Assembly (NCBI GenBank): GCA_947492905.1
Contig: CANLOL010000001.1
Span: 2,148,578-2,212,577, forward strand
Reading direction: 5' to 3'
Source of the DNA: an uncultured Sphingorhabdus sp.
Lineage (GTDB): Bacteria; Pseudomonadota; Alphaproteobacteria; Sphingomonadales; Sphingomonadaceae
DNA: 64,000 nt
The position numbers were made by a program, and so were the translations under genes. The notes beneath the pieces were generated by a model. The model was not told the DNA's origin. It was given only the letters and a program-made list of their open reading frames with translations, and did no database searches. Below are positions 4,690-15,209 of this stretch, piece after piece (the first letter of the stretch is position 1; each line of letters begins with the position of its first letter).

Positions 4690-6492
4690 TTAGGCGACTT
4701 CAAACATTTCTGGGTCAAGCGCCATAATGCTCTCACCGCCTGTTTCAATCTTGCGGCGCAGCGCACCTGCATCGGGCATGATACGCTCGGCAAAATAACG
4801 CGCTGTTACCAATTTCGTTTCATAAAATGCCGCATTGCCCTCGCCACTTTCTAGCGCTTCACGCGCTGCTACGCTCATACGCAACCACTGAAGGCCGAGT
4901 GCAACAATACCCATGATGTGCATATAATGATGTGCCCCTGCCCCAACATTATCGGGGTTAGCCATACCATTTTGCATGAACCACATAGTCGCTGCTTTTA
5001 ACTCGCCATTGGCTTTTTCAAGGCGCTCGGCAAAATCACTACTATCAGCGCCCGCTTTGACTGCTGCGCATTCATCATCCACAACTTTGAAGAAAGCTTG
5101 AACAGCACGACCACCATTTTGGGCCAATTTACGGCCAACAAGATCCATAGCTTGTATGCCATTTGTGCCTTCGTAAATCATTGTGATACGAGCATCGCGC
5201 ACATATTGCTCCATGCCCCATTCGCCAATATAACCATGGCCGCCGTAAACTTGCTGCGCATTGGTGGCAATGTCATAGCCTTTATCGGTACCATATCCCT
5301 TAATTACAGGAGTTAGCAGCGATAATAGATCATCAGCCATTTCACGATCTTCCTCGGTCGCTCCTTTGTGGATGAGATCGGCTTGCAGAGCACCCCATAA
5401 GCAAAGAGCGCGCATACCTTCGGTAATTGCTTTGGCATCCATCAACATGCGGCGCACATCGGGGTGAACGAACAATGTATCGGCTTTTTCTTCCAAATCT
5501 TTCGGGCCCGTCAATGCGCGGCCTTGGCGACGATCGGCTGCATAAGCCACAGCATTTTGATAGGATATTTCCGCAATACCAAGCCCTTGCTGGCCAACGC
5601 CGAGACGCGCCACATTCATCATGATGAACATAGCGGCAAGACCTTTATTCTCTTCGCCTACCAAATAGCCAGTAGCGCCGTCATAATTCATGACGCACGT
5701 AGAATTTCCGTGTATACCCATTTTATGTTCAATCGATCCACAGGATAATGTGTTGCGATCTCCCAATGATCCATCATCATTGACGATGAATTTAGGAACA
5801 ATGAATAATGAAATCCCTTTTACGCTGTCCGGTGCATCGGGCGTTTTAGCCAATACCAAGTGAATGATATTTTCGGTCATATCATGCTCGCCAGAGGATA
5901 TGAAGATTTTGGTGCCGCTAATTGCAAAGCTGCCGTCGTCATTTGGTACCGCTTTTGTGCGAATTAGTCCCAAATCTGTGCCACAATGTGGTTCGGTCAA
6001 ATTCATAGTGCCGCCCCATTTTCCAGAGACCATATTTGGCACATATTTTTCTTTTTGCTCTTGGCTGCCTTTTGCCAAGATAGAAGACACGGCGCCATGC
6101 GTAAGTCCAGGGTACATAGCAAATGCCATATTAGAGCTTGCCATAAATTCTTCAAAAGCCATGCTGACGACATGCGGTAATTCTTGCCCGCCAAATTCTT
6201 CGGGCGCAGATAAAGTACCCCACCCAGCTTCGCAATATTGTGCATAGGCTTCTTTGAAACCTGCGGGTGTAGTTACGCTGCCATCTTCATGACGAGTGCA
6301 GCCTTCTAAATCACCCGATTGGTTGAGCGGGAACAAAACATTTTCAACAAATTTAGAACCTTCACCCAAAATTGCTTCAACCATATCGGGCGTAGCATTT
6401 TCAAATCCTGGTAAATTTGAATATTTTTCTAATTTCAAAACATTGTTAAGGTTGAATAATGTGTCGTTTACAGGGGCTTTATACTGAGGCAT
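4690..6492 (-). CDS. Acyl-CoA dehydrogenase, long DmdC-like type with C-terminal extension
   Basis: A FAD-dependent acyl-CoA dehydrogenase of 600 residues, longer than the usual 380-400. The core holds [15 protein letters not shown] and the FAD-binding [21 protein letters not shown]; the catalytic glutamate is expected in [10 protein letters not shown] near residue 425. The last 150 residues form the acyl-CoA dehydrogenase C-terminal extension seen in DmdC (3-methylmercaptopropionyl-CoA dehydrogenase) and related FadE-like proteins. It lies 43 bases after a MerR-type regulator on the same strand and most likely forms an operon with it. The true acyl substrate is open: DMSP-derived, branched-chain or fatty acyl-CoA are all possible. 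Confidence 0.88.
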
Positions 6493-6535
6493 ATTTTTAT
6501 CCTATAGAAAGATGAAGTAATTATTTGATATAGTC

Positions 6536-6979
6536 TTATTTTTGGTCGCTTATTTCTGCTTCTTCGACAACAGCAACAAATTCGGTCAATTCTGATATTG
6601 CACTATCAATATCTTCTTTTTGTTTTTTGAGCAATTCTATGCGCGCAACGCATTTTTCTAACGTCACTTTTCGCTGCAAATTACGCCCATCACCAACATC
6701 ATAAAGATCAATCATCTCGCGAATTTCAGCAAGACTAAATCCCACACGCTTTGCTCTTAATATCCATGCAAGTCTAGCGCGGTCGCGTTTAGAATAAACG
6801 CGCGATAGACCATTTCTCTCTGGTGCTATTAATCCTTGATCTTCATAAAAACGCAATGCACGCGCCGTAACATCAAATTCGCTCGATAAATCTGAAATAG
6901 TGAAAGATTCACGATTGAGATGATCGGGCATATCGAGCGTTGCATCGGCCCTAGGTTTTTCTGATACGCTATTGTTCAT
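6536..6979 (-). CDS. MerR-family transcriptional regulator (LiuR/PsrA-like)
   Basis: A 147-residue DNA-binding protein. The winged helix spans about residues 25-95, with FTISDLSSEFDVTARALRFY and the hallmark RALRFYEDQGLI; a coiled-coil helix follows (VARIELLKKQKEDIDSAIS). It lacks the Cys/His clusters of metal-sensing MerR proteins, which fits the acyl-CoA and branched-chain catabolism regulators of the LiuR type. It is the first gene before an acyl-CoA dehydrogenase, and a palindrome lies in its own promoter, so autoregulation plus control of the dehydrogenase is the likely arrangement. Confidence 0.85.
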   Translation of the reverse strand: MNNSVSEKPRADATLDMPDHLNRESFTISDLSSEFDVTARALRFYEDQGLIAPERNGLSRVYSKRDRARLAWILRAKRVGFSLAEIREMIDLYDVGDGRNLQRKVTLEKCVARIELLKKQKEDIDSAISELTEFVAVVEEAEISDQK

Positions 6980-7012
6980 GTTCGAATCTCACAGCTTAGT
7001 TCATATGACTTT

Positions 7013-7041
7013 CTTATACTTAACGTTTACGCTAACGTCAA
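7013..7041 (-). promoter_or_regulatory. Promoter with embedded MerR-type operator
   Basis: Reading the reverse strand, TTGACG (7041-7036) and TATAAG (7018-7013) are separated by 17 bases that contain the imperfect palindrome GACGTTAGCGTAAACGTT. An operator between -35 and -10 is the MerR pattern, and the ACGTTnnCGTAAACGT core resembles published LiuR-type sites. It lies 34-62 bases upstream of the merR start codon. Confidence 0.65.
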
Positions 7042-7063
7042 GCAAAAATAGGAGTGTGACTTT

Positions 7064-7177
7064 ATGCCTGCCTATGACTTAGTTGCCAGAACATTTTATG
7101 ACTCCCAGAACCTTTATAACTCACAGAACTTTCTACAATCAGTTCACCCAAGATTTGCGCGATATGCCTTGTGCTGA
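7064..7177 (+). CDS. Possible 37-residue small ORF with repeated SQN motif
   Basis: An ATG at 7064 is preceded by AGGAG at 9 bases spacing and opens a 37-codon frame ending in TGA at 7177. The peptide contains FYDSQNLYNSQNF, which comes from an imperfect tandem repeat of about 20 bases at 7084-7134. The last 39 bases overlap the 3' end of serB in antisense. It is divergent from the MerR gene and would share its operator region. No homologue is known to me; it may be noise around a small repeat. Confidence 0.2.
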   Translation: MPAYDLVARTFYDSQNLYNSQNFLQSVHPRFARYALC

Positions 7178-8017
7178 TAATAAGGCTGTTAAATCACCAT
7201 GGACGATATGCATGTCGGCTGCCTTTTGCGCCGCTGGTTTCGCTTTATAAGCCACCCCCAAGCCCGCAGCTTCAATCATAGGTATATCATTCGCGCCATC
7301 ACCAACGGCCAATGTTTGGGACTTCTGCCAATCATTACGTGCAATGATAGCGTTTAAAATATTCTGCTTTGTTTGAGCATCAACGATTTCACCGTCAATT
7401 TCGCCGCTTAATATGCCATTATCAATCTTCAATTCATTAGCGTGGAAATGATGAAAGCCTAATGTTTGGGCTACGCTGCGGGCAAATTGATTAAAACCGC
7501 CTGATACCAAAACACATTGTGCGCCGCGCGATGCCATTGTTTTGACCAATGTTTCAGCACCCTTGCTCATCACCACACGTTCTTTCAGACATGTTTCAAT
7601 AGCTTCTTGGTTCAATCCTTTTAACAATGCAACACGGGCCCGCAATGCTTCCTCAAAGTCCATTTCGCCCTGCATAGCGCGCTCGGTTACAGCAGCAATT
7701 TCGTCTTTAATACCAGCATAATCAGCAAGTTCGTCAATGCACTCGACAGTAATCATGGTGCTGTCCATGTCAGATATCAGCAGTTTTTTTTGGCGATTGC
7801 TCTCATCTTGCACTGCTATATCCATTGCATCCATCAAGGGTATAAGCGCGGTTTTGGCAGTATCAATTTCGCCATCAAAATATATATCCACAACTTGACC
7901 TTCATCAATCCAATCTATTTTGCCCAGCGATAACTCTGATTTCTTGAGCAAATCTTGGGCGGCTGATAAGTGTCCGCTTGCAAGCATCTCACTTGCTATT
8001 AAGGTTGCTATTGGCAT
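7139..8017 (-). CDS. serB: Phosphoserine phosphatase
   Basis: The last step of serine synthesis, removing phosphate from L-phosphoserine in the cytoplasm. The HAD phosphatase core starts with ISDMDSTMITVE, giving nucleophile D83 and acid D85; SGGFNQF is motif II and VGDGANDIPMIEAAGLGVAYKAKP is motif III/IV. The N-terminal 75 residues form the ACT-like extension typical of 290-residue proteobacterial SerB. The start ATG at 8017 has AGGA upstream and overlaps the ATG of divergent miaA by two bases. Confidence 0.93.
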   Translation of the reverse strand: MPIATLIASEMLASGHLSAAQDLLKKSELSLGKIDWIDEGQVVDIYFDGEIDTAKTALIPLMDAMDIAVQDESNRQKKLLISDMDSTMITVECIDELADYAGIKDEIAAVTERAMQGEMDFEEALRARVALLKGLNQEAIETCLKERVVMSKGAETLVKTMASRGAQCVLVSGGFNQFARSVAQTLGFHHFHANELKIDNGILSGEIDGEIVDAQTKQNILNAIIARNDWQKSQTLAVGDGANDIPMIEAAGLGVAYKAKPAAQKAADMHIVHGDLTALLSAQGISRKSWVN

Positions 8018-8951
8018 GACGAATCCTATTCATAATAAAACTGTAGCGCTTATCGCTGGTCCAACCGCTAGCGGCAAGACTGGATTAGCAATTGCACTAG
8101 CTAATCATAATCCCGATCAAAAATATATCATTATTAATGCCGATAGTGCGCAAATATATGATCATCTGCCTATTTTAAGCGCGCAGCCCGATGCCGAAGA
8201 AATGACGCAAGCAGAACATAGATTATTTGGCTATAAATATGGCAGCATAACATGCAGTGCCGTGAGCTGGGCCAATGATGCAAAGTCAGAGATTGATAAA
8301 GCACATAGCGAGAATGCTATCCCTATATTAGTTGGCGGAACAGGCATGTATATCCGCACATTATTGGACGGCATTGCCCCAATCCCAGATATTGATCCCG
8401 ATATCCGGCAATCTGTTCGGACGATGGAAACGCATCAAGCTTATGAACAATTATCAGCGCTTGATGCACCCATGGCCGATATTCTTAATCCCAATGACAC
8501 GACCAGAATAGCGCGAGCATTAGAAGTGATAATGTCCACAGGAACTAGCATTGCGACATGGCGCAAGAAAAAAGAAGGTGGAATTGCCGAGGCTATAAAT
8601 TTAAAACCACTAATCTTGCTGCCCCCACGCGAATGGCTCTATGAAAAATGTGATAAGCGTTTTGTTCAAATGATGGATATAGGAGCAATAGAAGAGGTTG
8701 AGGCTCTTATAAAGCGCAATCCGCCAGCAGATAGCCCCTTGTGGCGCGCAATCGGTGTTAAGGAGATATCCGCCTATATCAATGGTGACATTGATAAAGA
8801 AAAAGCCATAGAATTGGGGCAAATAGCAACGCGCCAATATGCAAAACGCCAATATACGTGGTTCCGCAATCAAGCACCTAGTAGGTGGCAACGTGCAGAT
8901 GGCGAGATAAATTATAAAAATATAAATGATTTTGTAACTTTATTTCATTAA
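8016..8951 (+). CDS. miaA: tRNA dimethylallyltransferase
   Basis: Transfers a dimethylallyl group to A37 of tRNAs that read codons starting with U. The product of 311 residues begins with the P-loop GPTASGKT at about residue 14, followed by the family block DSAQIYDHLPI and VGGTGMYIRTLLDG. RQYAKRQYTWFRNQ is the usual C-terminal signature. A longer frame opens at 7920, but the family N-terminus fits the ATG at 8016; the ribosome site there is weak (AAGG at 11 bases). Its promoter must lie inside serB. Confidence 0.93.
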   Translation: MTNPIHNKTVALIAGPTASGKTGLAIALANHNPDQKYIIINADSAQIYDHLPILSAQPDAEEMTQAEHRLFGYKYGSITCSAVSWANDAKSEIDKAHSENAIPILVGGTGMYIRTLLDGIAPIPDIDPDIRQSVRTMETHQAYEQLSALDAPMADILNPNDTTRIARALEVIMSTGTSIATWRKKKEGGIAEAINLKPLILLPPREWLYEKCDKRFVQMMDIGAIEEVEALIKRNPPADSPLWRAIGVKEISAYINGDIDKEKAIELGQIATRQYAKRQYTWFRNQAPSRWQRADGEINYKNINDFVTLFH

Positions 8952-9087
8952 TTATAGTTGACATGATAGTTTTATATCATTAGCCAGCCACTTCTTGCCT
9001 AATTTTTATCTTAATATAGAGAATGGGCGATGATCTAAATTAACCCCCGCTTATAATATAGCGTATTAAAATGTATTGGAATTGATT

Positions 9088-10833
9088 GTGACCGCAAAAT
9101 CCGGCGCAGATATATTATTAAACAGCCTGATTGAACAAGGCGTTGATACTATTTTTGGCTATCCAGGCGGCGCTGTGCTTCCTATTTATGATGCTTTATT
9201 CAAACATCCTAAAATTAAGCATATATTGGTGCGCCATGAAGCTGGCGCTGCGCACGCAGCAGAGGGATATGCGCGATCAACTGGCAAACCAGGCGTTGTT
9301 TTAGTAACCTCTGGGCCGGGTGCAACAAACGCAGTTACCGGAATTGCCGATGCATTTATGGATAGCATCCCTCTTGTAATTATTACTGGCCAAGTACCCT
9401 CTACGCTTATTGGTTCAGATGCCTTTCAAGAGGCGGATACAGTTGGTATCACGCGCCATTGCACCAAACATAATTATCTGGTGAAAGATCCAGACGATCT
9501 TGCCAATGTCATGAAAGAAGCATTTTACCTTGCGACCAATGGTCGCCCTGGCCCCGTTTTGGTTGATATTCCCAAAGATGTGCAAGTCGCAGATGGAGCC
9601 AATTGCGATAGCAGTAAAAACCAAAAGATGCGCTGTGATATTCCATTTGAAGCAGATTTTAATGATATTACTAAAGCGATGGAATTATTGGCTAATGCAA
9701 AAGCCCCTATTCTCTATACAGGCGGCGGTATTATCAATTCTGGGCCACATGCCAGTAAAGCTCTGCAAGAATTAGCGCAACTCAGCAATGCTCCCGTAAC
9801 ATCAACTTTAATGGGACTAGGTTCATTACCAGCTGAAGATGACAAATGGCTTGGGATGCTTGGCATGCATGGCACTTATGAAGCCAATATGGCGATGAAT
9901 CAATGCGATGTAATGCTCTGTTTAGGGGCTAGATTTGATGATCGCGTCACGGGAAGATTGGATGCTTTTTCTCCCAATAGTTATAAAATCCATGTTGATA
10001 TTGATAGAAGCTCCATCAACAAAACCGTTAGAGTTGATCTTCCTATTGTAGCGGATGTTGGCAAAGCCATCGATCAAATGATTAAAATATGGAAAAGCCG
10101 CAAATTCACTGCGGCAAATCTTGATGATTGGTGGGCTAGAATCAAAGGATGGCGCGCAGTTGAGTGCCTGAACTATCCTGCCAATAAAGACGAAATTATG
10201 CCGCAATATGCTATTGAGCGTTTATATGAGGCCACCAAAGATAAAAGCCCCATTATTACGACCGAAGTAGGCCAGCATCAAATGTGGGCTGCGCAGCATT
10301 TTCATTTTCAAGAACCCAATAAATGGCTAACCAGCGGCGGGCTTGGCACTATGGGCTATGGGATGCCAGCAGCTATTGGCGCGCAAATAGGCAATCCAGA
10401 TGCCTTGGTGATTGATATTGCTGGCGAAGCGTCAATTCAAATGAACATACAAGAATTGGGCACCGCATCACAATATAGGCTGCCTATTAAGATTTTCATT
10501 TTGAACAATCAATGGATGGGTATGGTTCGCCAATGGCAAGAGCTCACATTCAAAAGCCGTTACTCAGAGAGTTATTCTGATAGCTTGCCCGATTTCGTGG
10601 CCCTTGCAAAAGCCTATGGCTGGGAAGGCATTGTCATTGATCATCCCGATAATTTGGATGAAGGAATTGCGCAAATGCTCGATTATGATGGCCCTGTAAT
10701 CGTTGATTGCCGCGTCACCCAATCCGCCAATTGCTTTCCCATGATTCCATCGGGAGCAGCCCATACAGAAATGCTATTAGACAATAGCACTGTCTCGGGT
10801 GAAATGGATGATGAAGCAAAGGCTCTAGTATAA
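9088..10833 (+). CDS. ilvB: Acetolactate synthase large subunit
   Basis: A ThDP- and FAD-dependent enzyme that makes acetolactate or acetohydroxybutyrate, the first common step to valine, leucine and isoleucine. About 581 residues. The ThDP glutamate lies in RHEAGAAHAAEGYAR; the Mg-ThDP motif reads AGEASIQMN, with Glu where many families have Asp. I prefer the GTG at 9088 (GGA at 7 bases, product starts MTAKSGADILL); an in-frame TTG at 9076 is possible. The 136 bases after miaA hold a TATAAT at 9052-9057 that may be the -10. Its stop overlaps the ilvH start (TAATG). Confidence 0.93.
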   Translation: MTAKSGADILLNSLIEQGVDTIFGYPGGAVLPIYDALFKHPKIKHILVRHEAGAAHAAEGYARSTGKPGVVLVTSGPGATNAVTGIADAFMDSIPLVIITGQVPSTLIGSDAFQEADTVGITRHCTKHNYLVKDPDDLANVMKEAFYLATNGRPGPVLVDIPKDVQVADGANCDSSKNQKMRCDIPFEADFNDITKAMELLANAKAPILYTGGGIINSGPHASKALQELAQLSNAPVTSTLMGLGSLPAEDDKWLGMLGMHGTYEANMAMNQCDVMLCLGARFDDRVTGRLDAFSPNSYKIHVDIDRSSINKTVRVDLPIVADVGKAIDQMIKIWKSRKFTAANLDDWWARIKGWRAVECLNYPANKDEIMPQYAIERLYEATKDKSPIITTEVGQHQMWAAQHFHFQEPNKWLTSGGLGTMGYGMPAAIGAQIGNPDALVIDIAGEASIQMNIQELGTASQYRLPIKIFILNNQWMGMVRQWQELTFKSRYSESYSDSLPDFVALAKAYGWEGIVIDHPDNLDEGIAQMLDYDGPVIVDCRVTQSANCFPMIPSGAAHTEMLLDNSTVSGEMDDEAKALV

Positions 10834-11373: not shown

Positions 11374-12417
<1,044 letters not shown>

Positions 12418-12418
12418 T

Positions 12419-12451
12419 AAAAAAAGGTGGCTCTCATCGGTTAGAGCCACC
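12419..12451 (-). terminator. Terminator of the Cys-repeat cluster
   Basis: A perfect 9 bp stem, GGTGGCTCT with AGAGCCACC (12443-12451 and 12426-12434), 8-base loop. On the reverse strand it is followed by seven T residues (12425-12419), closing the cysteine-repeat cluster. The hairpin also starts just after the ilvC stop codon and may slow forward transcription, although no T run follows on that strand. Confidence 0.85.
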
Positions 12452-12480
12452 TAATTCAACAGCTAAAAGCTATTAACTCG

Positions 12481-12759
12481 TTATGCACTCGGTGCACATT
12501 TAGCAGCACAAGCCGCTCCACACGCAGCGCAAGCTGCTGCACAGGCTGCGCCACAAGCTGCTGCACAAGCGCCGCAAGCTGCTGCACATGCACCACAAGC
12601 ACCGCAGGCGCCACAAGCACCACATGCACCGCACGCTGCACAAGCACTACATGCTGAACAAGCACTGCAAGGACCTGAAGATGCACTTGCAGGTGCAGTT
12701 GCTAATGCTAAACCGCCAGCTACTGCTAATAATGTCGCTAATTTTGTTGTCTTAGTCAT
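12481..12759 (-). CDS. Exported Cys-Ala-Gly repeat protein without further domains
   Basis: A 92-residue protein. Residues 1-28 form a signal peptide (KLATLLAVAGGLALATAPASA). The mature part is almost only Ala, Cys and Gly, with 18 cysteines in residues 31-88 spaced as C-x2-C in the first half and mixed C-x2/x3-C later; it ends KCAPSA. GGAG at 8 bases supports the ATG at 12759. Its signal peptide is nearly identical to that of the next gene upstream (12847-13479), which has the same repeat fused to a YHS domain. Dense CxxC spacing suggests metal or thiol chemistry in the periplasm; this is inference. I know no named family for it. Confidence 0.8.
   Translation of the reverse strand: MTKTTKLATLLAVAGGLALATAPASASSGPCSACSACSACAACGACGACGACGACGACAAACGACAAACGAACAAACAACGAACAAKCAPSA
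12496..12669 (-). repeat. Coding repeat: Cys-x2/x3-Cys units
   Basis: Short tandem codon repeat encoding runs of CGA, CSA and CAA triplets, with 18 cysteine codons in 58. All spacings are multiples of one residue, with two- or three-residue gaps, so the array can grow or shrink without losing the frame. A related array lies at 13270-13389. Confidence 0.85.
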
Positions 12760-12805
12760 AATAAACTCCACTTTCAAATTTTGAACCAAAATGGCTCGAT
12801 TAAAC

Positions 12806-12840
12806 ATAAATAAAGAGCCGCCCCCTCACGAGCCGGCTCT
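12806..12840 (-). terminator. Weak terminator or processing hairpin between two Cys-repeat genes
   Basis: On the reverse strand AGAGCCG and CGGCTCT (12840-12834 and 12820-12814) form a 7 bp stem with a 13-base loop, followed by TTTATTTATG. It lies just after the stop codon of the YHS-Cys protein and before the Cys-only gene. The broken T run suggests partial read-through or a stability element that sets the ratio of the two products. Confidence 0.55.
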
Positions 12841-12846
12841 ATTATT

Positions 12847-13479
12847 TTATTGATTACCAATGCTTGCGCCATTGGGAATTTTTGGCCATGCGGCTTCTGA
12901 TTTTGCTAAGAAACCAGGGATATCTTTCAACCAATTTACTTGAACATTAGGGTTGAAATTTAGGTATAATTTACCATCAACAATTTTTGATAGCTTTGGA
13001 TCTCCTGGTGCCAAACGACCGCGAGCCATAGCCCAAGCACAGTGACCACCATATTGAGGGGCGTAATTGGCTGGGTTTTGTTTAAAGGCTGCTAGATTAG
13101 CTTTGCTAGAGAAATGATATGTTGCACCAGCATATTCAGTTGAGAAGTTCGCGTTACCGATAACTGGTGTTCCGTCACCTTGGAAATAGCTAACTACATC
13201 GTAACCGCTAACCGCTGGTTTATCTCCATCGATACCCGTGAACACAGGACGATAAGAGGCACTTGCTGCACAAGCTCCGCATGAAGCCGCGCATGCTCCA
13301 CAAGCTGCACCGCAAGCTGCTGCACATGCACCGCAGGCGCCACAAGCTGAACAGGCACCACATGCTGAACAGGCACTACATGCACCGCATGGCGCAGCAG
13401 AGATAGTTGCAGGAGCTGTGGCGATGACCAAGCCACCGGCTACAGCCAACATTGTTGCTAATTTAACAGATTTAGACAT
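12847..13479 (-). CDS. Exported Cys-repeat protein fused to a YHS domain
   Basis: A 210-residue protein with three parts: signal peptide (1-28), a cysteine repeat (31-70) with 13 cysteines as CGAC/CSAC/CAAAC units, and a YHS-type domain (about 77-195) with SGYDVVSYFQGDGTP, YHFSSKANLAAFKQNP and the cysteine-bearing YGGHCAWAMARG. YHS domains are linked to metal handling, for instance near copper ATPases. The domain is closely similar to the lipoprotein encoded upstream, and the N-terminus to the Cys-only protein encoded downstream, so it is a mosaic of its two neighbours. Reading order is lipoprotein, this gene, Cys-only protein. Confidence 0.85.
   Translation of the reverse strand: MSKSVKLATMLAVAGGLVIATAPATISAAPCGACSACSACGACSACGACGACAAACGAACGACAASCGACAASASYRPVFTGIDGDKPAVSGYDVVSYFQGDGTPVIGNANFSTEYAGATYHFSSKANLAAFKQNPANYAPQYGGHCAWAMARGRLAPGDPKLSKIVDGKLYLNFNPNVQVNWLKDIPGFLAKSEAAWPKIPNGASIGNQ
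13270..13389 (-). repeat. Coding repeat: Cys-x2/x3-Cys units in the YHS fusion
   Basis: Forty codons with 13 cysteines, of the same CGAC/CSAC/CAAAC kind as the array at 12496-12669 but shorter and in a different order, so it is a related, not identical, expansion. Confidence 0.85.
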
Positions 13480-13540
13480 ATTTTTTTCCTAACTAATCTA
13501 ACTAAAATTTATTCGAGGGGGATTTAAAAGATTATTTATC

Positions 13541-14092
13541 TTATGCGCCAAATACGGCATCATCAGGGACGGTTGGCCATGCAGCTTCTGATTTTTCAAT
13601 ATAACCAGGAATATCGCTCAACCAATCTTTTTGGACTTCTGTGTTGAAGTTCAAATATAATTTTCCATCAACAACTTTTGCTAATGTAGCATCACCAGGT
13701 GCCAAATTACCTTTTGACATAGCCCATGCACAATGGCCGCCATATTGAGGAACAAATGCTGCTGGATCAGCAACAAATTTTTCTTTATTTTCTGCAGAGG
13801 CAAAATGATAAACAGCGTCGCCATATTGAACTGAATAATCTTCACTGCCAAGAACAGGAGTGCCTTCATCCGTAAAATAGCTTGTTACATCATAGCCTGA
13901 TACAGCTACATTGCCGCCATCAACACCCAAAAACACAGGGCGTTTTTCAGCTTCGATTACTACTAGCTCATCAGCGCTAGCTTCTGCAACGCTGGTTTCT
14001 TCGGCGTTATTAGCGGTTTCGCCGCCTGTTCCACATGCTGCAAGACCAAAAATAATGGTCGCTGCTGCTGATGATAATAATGTCTTCTTCAT
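13541..14092 (-). CDS. YHS-domain lipoprotein
   Basis: A 183-residue protein with a lipoprotein signal peptide ending in GLAAC (Cys20), an acidic Asn/Glu linker, and a YHS-type domain (about 50-170) with SGYDVTSYFTDEGTP and YGGHCAWAMSKGNLAPGD. It is a clear paralogue of the YHS half of the next gene but has no cysteine repeat; apart from the lipid cysteine, the one cysteine is in GGHC. It is first in the three-gene cluster, with an ECF-type promoter candidate upstream. Probable location is the periplasmic face of a membrane. Confidence 0.85.
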   Translation of the reverse strand: MKKTLLSSAAATIIFGLAACGTGGETANNAEETSVAEASADELVVIEAEKRPVFLGVDGGNVAVSGYDVTSYFTDEGTPVLGSEDYSVQYGDAVYHFASAENKEKFVADPAAFVPQYGGHCAWAMSKGNLAPGDATLAKVVDGKLYLNFNTEVQKDWLSDIPGYIEKSEAAWPTVPDDAVFGA

Positions 14093-14155: not shown

Positions 14156-14181
14156 TTCGTTGAACAATTGATATGGTTACA
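14156..14181 (-). promoter_or_regulatory. ECF-sigma type promoter candidate for the YHS/Cys-repeat cluster
   Basis: Reading the reverse strand, TGTAACC (14181-14175), 15 bases, then CGAA (14159-14156), 64 bases before the lipoprotein start. ECF sigma factors typically use an AAC-containing -35 and a CGxx -10. As I recall, Caulobacter SigF promoters have GTAACC-N16-CGAA and control a DUF2282/DUF692 operon; the match here is close but one base shorter in spacing. No ECF sigma gene is in the window. Confidence 0.45.
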
Positions 14182-14237: not shown

Positions 14238-15209
14238 TTAATATGTAATTGATTGTAATCGCTCTGATGCGATACGATATTCTTCAGCCAATTTATCAAC
14301 CATTTGGCCAGCAGTTTGCACATCATCAATATTGCCAATACCCTGTCCGCAACCCCAAATATCTTTCCATGCTTTTGCATCGGTATTGCCGCCAGAACCG
14401 AAATTCATCTTGCTTGGATCGCTCTCAGGCAGATTTTCAGGATCAAGACCTGCGTTCTCAATAGACTCGCGTAGATAATTGCCATGAACACCGGTAAATA
14501 GGTTTGAATAGATAATATCCTCGGCCTTGCCCTTCACGATACCTTGTTTATATCCATCATCAGCACGCGCTTCTTGAGCGGCAATAAATGCGCTTCCTAT
14601 ATAGGCAAAATCCGCGCCCATCGCTTGGGCACTCAATATTGCAGAACCAGAAGCAATAGAGCCAGAGAGCGCTACAGGGCCATCAAACCAAGCTCGAATT
14701 TCTTGCATCAAGGCAAATGGAGACGTCACACCAGCATGACCGCCAGCACCAGCTGCAACAGGTATCAAGCCATCTGCGCCTTTTTCAATTGCTTTGCGCG
14801 CAAAACGATCGCTAATAACATCATGCATGGTAATGCCGCCCCATTCATGCGCAGCCTTATTAAGGTCTTCACGCGCACCCAATGAGGTTATGAGCATCGG
14901 TACTTTCCATTTCGCACAAGTGACCATATCTTCTTCAAGACGATTATTCGTGCGATGCACAATCTGATTAACAGCATAAGGCGCTGCGGGACTATCAGGA
15001 TTGTCACGATTATGTGCGGCCAATTCTTCTGTAATTTGGTGAAGCCATTCGTCCAATTGTGATTGAGGGCGCGCATTAAGCGCGGGAAAAGAACCAACAA
15101 TACCGGCCTTACATTGTGCGATAACAAGCTCTGGACCAGAAATAATAAATAATGGAGAGCCAATGACGGGAAGGCGCAAATTATCAAATAAGGGTGAAGG
15201 CATTGCCAT
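14238..15209 (-). CDS. Nitronate monooxygenase-like FMN enzyme
   Basis: A TIM-barrel flavoprotein of 323 residues in the nitronate monooxygenase (2-nitropropane dioxygenase) family. LRLPVIGSPLFIISGPELVIAQCKAGIVGSFP is the family N-terminus; AAGAGGHAG carries the conserved His expected to act as base, and LSGSIASGSAILSAQAMGADFAYIGSAFIA forms the phosphate-binding end of the barrel. AGGA at 8 bases supports the start. It stands alone between the Cys-repeat cluster and leuA. Family members also include enoyl reductases, so the substrate is open. Confidence 0.85.
   Translation of the reverse strand: MAMPSPLFDNLRLPVIGSPLFIISGPELVIAQCKAGIVGSFPALNARPQSQLDEWLHQITEELAAHNRDNPDSPAAPYAVNQIVHRTNNRLEEDMVTCAKWKVPMLITSLGAREDLNKAAHEWGGITMHDVISDRFARKAIEKGADGLIPVAAGAGGHAGVTSPFALMQEIRAWFDGPVALSGSIASGSAILSAQAMGADFAYIGSAFIAAQEARADDGYKQGIVKGKAEDIIYSNLFTGVHGNYLRESIENAGLDPENLPESDPSKMNFGSGGNTDAKAWKDIWGCGQGIGNIDDVQTAGQMVDKLAEEYRIASERLQSITY

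Follow-up and report, generated by a model that had tools for sequence, protein, structure and literature searches.

The locus described here raises the question of what three adjacent genes that combine exported cysteine repeats and YHS domains in different ways contribute to the bacterial envelope. The genes are located in a 64,000-nucleotide stretch, termed the window, of the genome of an uncultured Sphingorhabdus sp. (G000). All three are encoded on the minus strand, and consecutive genes are separated by gaps of 61 and 87 bp. Gene 1 (positions 13541 to 14092, 183 amino acids) codes for a lipoprotein signal with the lipobox GLAAC followed by a YHS domain, gene 2 (12847 to 13479, 210 amino acids) for a signal peptide with the leader LATMLAVAGGL, a Cys repeat containing 13 Cys within 40 residues, and a YHS domain, and gene 3 (12481 to 12759, 92 amino acids) for a signal peptide with the leader LATLLAVAGGL and an Ala/Cys/Gly repeat. 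The three architectures and their positions, as well as the 18 Cys in the 58-residue mature core of gene 3, agree with an earlier note on this DNA. Signal peptides were assigned by eye and by a simple hydrophobicity rule; those of genes 2 and 3 share about 68 to 75% identity when counted by hand, so that they are indeed similar, while their description in that note as almost identical was slightly too strong. The YHS domains of genes 1 and 2 show 60% mutual identity and belong to the YHS (seleno)protein family NF041384, with scores of 135.4 and 139 bits (curated cutoff, 70), in line with their proposed paralogy. The family name implies Sec in some members, and the two window proteins carry a Cys in the motif GGHCAW. 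A Pfam search of genes 1 and 2 gave YHS-type matches only, profile searches of gene 3 matched no Pfam or NCBIfam family, and an Rfam search of the cluster region returned no RNA element. The AlphaFold2 model of the YHS domain, built from two sequences, was of low confidence (pLDDT 45).

The Cys repeats behave as coding sequence. In gene 3, the third positions of the Ala codons are distributed as T12/A11/G3/C2 and those of the Cys codons as T13/C5, and 18/18 Cys codons remain Cys despite this variation, which argues for selection on the protein. A chance open frame or frame artifact was ruled out by the synonymous variation together with conservation. DNA-level tandem repeats are present, as neutral expansion of a functionless repeat that happens to be open would predict; yet the synonymous variation inside the repeats, the conserved operon partners, and the retention of signal peptide and Cys across genera already contradict this explanation, which we regard as hardly credible.

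The cluster is conserved outside the window genome, with Cys-repeat relatives occurring across genera. Its synteny anchors are ilvC, encoding ketol-acid reductoisomerase (11383 to 12417, plus strand), on one side and a gene for a nitronate monooxygenase-like protein, named by sequence resemblance (14238 to 15209, minus strand), on the other. Two genomes of the same genus, G011 and G023, possess the identical three-gene arrangement at the syntenic position beside ilvC, including gene 1, and their versions of the Cys repeats differ in length. At the ilvC locus of other relatives, G434 contains YHS, Cys, and YHS as separate genes, G013, G012, and G440 contain a YHS gene alone, and G005 contains an operon of YHS, Cys repeat, and DUF6969. 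An operon of the latter type, with NPCAA or similar repeat units, also adjoins ilvC in five genomes from genera other than that of the window, namely, Erythrobacter, Pontixanthobacter, and a Sphingomonadales bacterium (L088, L089, L091, L092, and L097). DUF6969 is placed between the Cys gene and ilvC in G005 and the Erythrobacter relatives, and it is absent in cis at the ilvC locus of G000, G011, and G023. The fusion of Cys repeat and YHS domain in gene 2 was found in the window lineage only (G000, G011, and G023). In a tree of YHS sequences, both window copies group with YHS genes neighboring Cys-repeat genes, the fork that joins the two copies directly being weakly supported; together with the separate parts in G434, this grouping fits the earlier suggestion that gene 2 is a mosaic. 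On the simplest reading of these arrangements, YHS-Cys-DUF6969 would be the older order, and the window lineage would have lost DUF6969 at the ilvC locus, duplicated YHS, and fused one copy to the Cys peptide.

The association of such peptides with DUF6969 extends far beyond this locus. In the window genome itself, DUF6969 (PF22308) is encoded at G000:C1:861563-862222 beside another Cys peptide with a window-type signal peptide, and Cys-repeat open reading frames with this signal peptide also lie beside DUF6969 in relatives. Scanning a DUF6969 alignment against genome contigs yielded 80 loci. A Cys-repeat stretch was found directly upstream of DUF6969 in 43/45 Sphingomonadales loci, compared with a background of roughly 3 to 25% per kb elsewhere in those loci, and within 1.5 kb upstream in 17/33 loci of other proteobacteria; the link is looser outside the Sphingomonadales. 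Within the genus (45 genomes, kinship ignored), a Cys peptide with the conserved leader was present in 9/9 genomes that encode DUF6969 and in 0/36 that do not. In many alphaproteobacteria, a gene for an exported FGE-sulfatase-like protein is inserted between peptide and DUF6969 or replaces the peptide. Such an exported FGE-sulfatase (SUMF1-like) gene lies directly upstream of DUF6969 in L183 (4588 to 6230) and also in L182, L188, L194, L198, and L199; these loci represent many non-Sphingomonadales alphaproteobacteria and often have CNPC-type repeats nearby. DUF6969 occurs in 90/385 sampled alphaproteobacterial genomes, and a plasmid search located it on Sinorhizobium, Burkholderia, and Azospirillum replicons, annotated, where at all, as hypothetical protein. 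In the class sample, co-occurrence with the NF041384 YHS family was 53/90, versus 64/295 in genomes lacking DUF6969 (odds ratio 5.2, p = 8e-11, class-wide and with kinship ignored), and the family is absent in the remaining 37/90 DUF6969 genomes.

What the Cys-repeat proteins share is the signal peptide, with the strongly conserved segment MLAVAGGLA. In related genomes, one leader precedes repeats as diverse as CGAC, CCAAEG, NPCAA, and CGAKP. Among 40 sequences, mostly from Sphingomonadales, GGL is invariant and mean pairwise identity over 16 leader positions is 72%, far above the conservation of the repeats, whose units vary (CAAEG, CCAAG, CAANP, CGAKP, CEATE, and CSAKANP). The window peptides conform to the same scheme, LAxMLAVAGGL or a close variant followed by a Cys repeat, as seen in the DUF6969-linked peptides. 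For bufferins, which are MNIO-modified RiPPs, there is preliminary evidence that the sequence recognized by the maturase includes the signal peptide (PMC12452194), and by analogy it may act as a recognition element for window-type peptides too.

DUF6969 has no N-terminal signal visible in its sequence and was on this ground taken to be cytosolic. An alignment of 46 sequences revealed the invariant residues H44, P46, D49, H62, H64, G75, H76, F77, H78, F80, G119, N128, R182, and D183. As a guess, DUF6969 may be a metal-dependent enzyme; it could be the maturation factor of the Cys peptides. The AlphaFold2 model is confident (pLDDT 94.1, pTM 0.91), but a comparison with PDB folds gave nothing significant (best E value, 0.63), and neither did a search of PDB sequences with the DUF6969 profile; the literature searched does not mention DUF6969. 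In its most specific form, which we put forward tentatively and with clearly less than even confidence, the proposal is that DUF6969 represents a new cytosolic metal-dependent peptide-modifying family with no PDB-known fold, which would act on Sec-exported Cys-repeat precursors via their signal peptide and thereby provide a second route to metal-binding peptides outside the cytoplasm that needs no MNIO; YHS proteins would be the metal partners common to both routes. Alternatively, the peptides might be unmodified exported thiol buffers, either metallothionein-like or redox sinks, and DUF6969 a nonmodifying protein, e.g., an escort or a metal-binding protein of the cytosol. Even without modification, plain CxxC/CxC repeats are able to bind metals, the window clusters lack DUF6969 in cis, and the repeats are so divergent that one specific site of modification is difficult to envisage; however, both the tight pairing with one cytosolic protein and a signal peptide better conserved than the mature part would be unusual for a plain buffer, and we consider this alternative rather unlikely.

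The YHS family provides a connection to bufferins. In the congeners G016, G022, and G426 (L024, L020, and L204), an NF041384 gene lies immediately 5′ of a bufferin precursor gene and MNIO, and in nine more alphaproteobacteria it is found on the same strand about 490 to 680 bp, i.e., one gene-length, upstream of MNIO, as judged from position and strand. Exported Cys-rich peptides of two different kinds thus have the same YHS family as companion, and the excess of YHS among DUF6969 genomes holds both with and without MNIO. The literature searched contains no report of a link between YHS and bufferins or MNIO. The earlier note had stated that no MNIO, DUF2063, or DoxX gene is nearby, which holds for the surroundings of the cluster; yet the window genome possesses a complete Buf1 operon, DUF2282-MNIO-DUF2063-DoxX-ECF sigma-NrsF, at a distance of about 0.9 Mb. 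This operon adjoins groEL (L174, G000:C1:1247000-1263000, about 5466 to 9232), and its MNIO, at G000:C1:1254926 outside the window, is the single copy in the genome.

This MNIO might modify the window peptides in trans and so generate additional bufferins. MNIO was found in 9/9 congeners with the peptide family, and a σF-type motif is common to the cluster and the Buf1 operon. Against this stand the lack of MNIO in 46/90 DUF6969 genomes of the class sample, the 14 congeners that have MNIO but no such peptides, and the Buf1 operon's own precursor, which does match DUF2282; modification in trans appears improbable. As the main maturase of the DUF6969-linked peptides, MNIO was disfavored since half of the DUF6969 genomes are without it.

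The motif in question, GTAACC-N15-CGAA, is matched strictly only once in the window, at positions 14156 to 14180 on the minus strand, where it forms a candidate σF-type promoter 88 bp upstream of gene 1. In Caulobacter, the σF motif of chromium- and cadmium-induced genes is GTAACC-N16-CGAA (PMC3511200), with a spacer of N16 rather than N15. G023 retains GTAACC-N15-CGAA and G011 has a GTAACT variant, with flanks that have otherwise diverged. The DUF2282 bufferin gene of the window genome is preceded by GTAACC-N16-CGAA, and the Buf1 operon encodes σF and NrsF homologues. The chance of finding the motif in the 145-bp stretch upstream of gene 1 is about 4e-4; genome-wide, there are 13 matches versus 40 for the reversed control, so that the motif is not enriched and is frequent enough to arise by chance. 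Several of the genome-wide matches lie just upstream of genes, for example those of exported proteins and of a radical SAM/methyltransferase pair. L285 (1230 to 3421) contains a radical SAM gene and a methyltransferase gene that are divergently oriented and, going by resemblance, may be related to arsenic, with a σF-type motif before each, L289 (1978 to 2415) encodes an exported protein with FSGRRG tandem repeats downstream of such a motif, and a second motif is located inside the DUF2063 gene of the Buf1 operon. σ70 promoter matches were as numerous as in shuffled sequences.

On the minus strand, a stable hairpin (12808 to 12847, z score of −3.1) is found just 3′ of gene 2; the pattern scan did not call it a terminator, and it may possibly attenuate or partly terminate transcription ahead of gene 3. 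The scan did detect an intrinsic terminator-like hairpin with a T run 3′ of gene 3 (12425 to 12452, minus strand). Given these two hairpins, the transcript level of gene 3 may differ from that of genes 1 and 2.

Promoter motif and YHS linkage also bear on a possible structural or adhesive function, in which the products would be low-complexity envelope proteins cross-linked by disulfides and unrelated to metal. Ala/Gly/Cys repeats of variable length could build cross-linked layers, and some relatives have a possible lipobox, but the linkage of the YHS family to bufferin-MNIO genes and the σF-type motif both point to metals, leaving a structural function with a low probability. The periplasmic metal or thiol buffering and the bufferin parallel proposed in the earlier note were in part supported, as the same two features fit them.

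Compared with known systems, the window cluster most resembles bufferins (Buf1/DUF2282 and Buf2), whose precursors are likewise small, rich in Cys, and provided with a Sec signal peptide; a putative ECF σF-NrsF setting is common to both, and in several genomes a YHS gene precedes the bufferin precursor and MNIO. It differs from them in having no DUF2282 match and no MNIO or DUF2063 in cis, in its partner DUF6969, about half of the sampled DUF6969 genomes being without MNIO, and in its simple, dense repeats of variable unit. The cluster is therefore not a bufferin by membership; it most likely functions like one. CefA, a RiPP peptide with Cys at every fifth position (NF038108), likewise contains regularly spaced Cys in a simple repeat, but the neighbor of the Cys-repeat peptides is DUF6969; DUF6969-linked relatives scored 19.7 bits at most with the NF038108 profile, below the cutoff of 30, and the window genes did not match it. 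Bacterial metallothioneins have a similarly high Cys content, with soft-metal binding expected, whereas the window peptides are exported, consist of simple repeats, and have YHS and DUF6969 partners; no window gene matched a Pfam metallothionein. As for the NF041384 family, of which genes 1 and 2 are members, the window differs in that a YHS domain is fused to an exported Cys repeat and in the linkage to Cys-repeat peptides; neither feature is reported in the literature searched.

Our preferred reading, to which we give an even chance, is that the cluster is the window version of a YHS/exported Cys-repeat peptide/DUF6969 system, a bufferin-like, MNIO-independent envelope metal or thiol buffer with DUF6969 as candidate maturation protein. 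Expression would probably start from a σF-NrsF-type promoter that is responsive to thiol-reactive metals and common to the bufferin operon. Cytosolic DUF6969, which has an invariant His cluster and is supplied in the window genome from another locus, would probably act on the precursor before export, maturing it, loading it with metal, or holding it, and would recognize it by the conserved signal peptide. The conserved Sec signal peptide would then direct the peptides to the periplasm, some relatives perhaps being lipoproteins, where their dense cysteine thiols would bind soft metal ions or electrophiles. The YHS proteins, one a lipoprotein and one a domain fused to the repeat, would work in the periplasm too and would probably pass metal on, in a direction that we infer, or anchor the buffer.

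The YHS/Cys peptide/DUF6969 gene set is widespread in bacteria and apparently undescribed, and it probably serves to hold toxic metals outside the cytoplasm. If this holds true, alphaproteobacteria and some beta- and gammaproteobacteria would possess a second, unnamed exported Cys-rich peptide system beside bufferins, whose conserved partner, DUF6969, has a fold without a match, and both DUF6969 and the YHS (seleno)protein family would gain their first functional setting.
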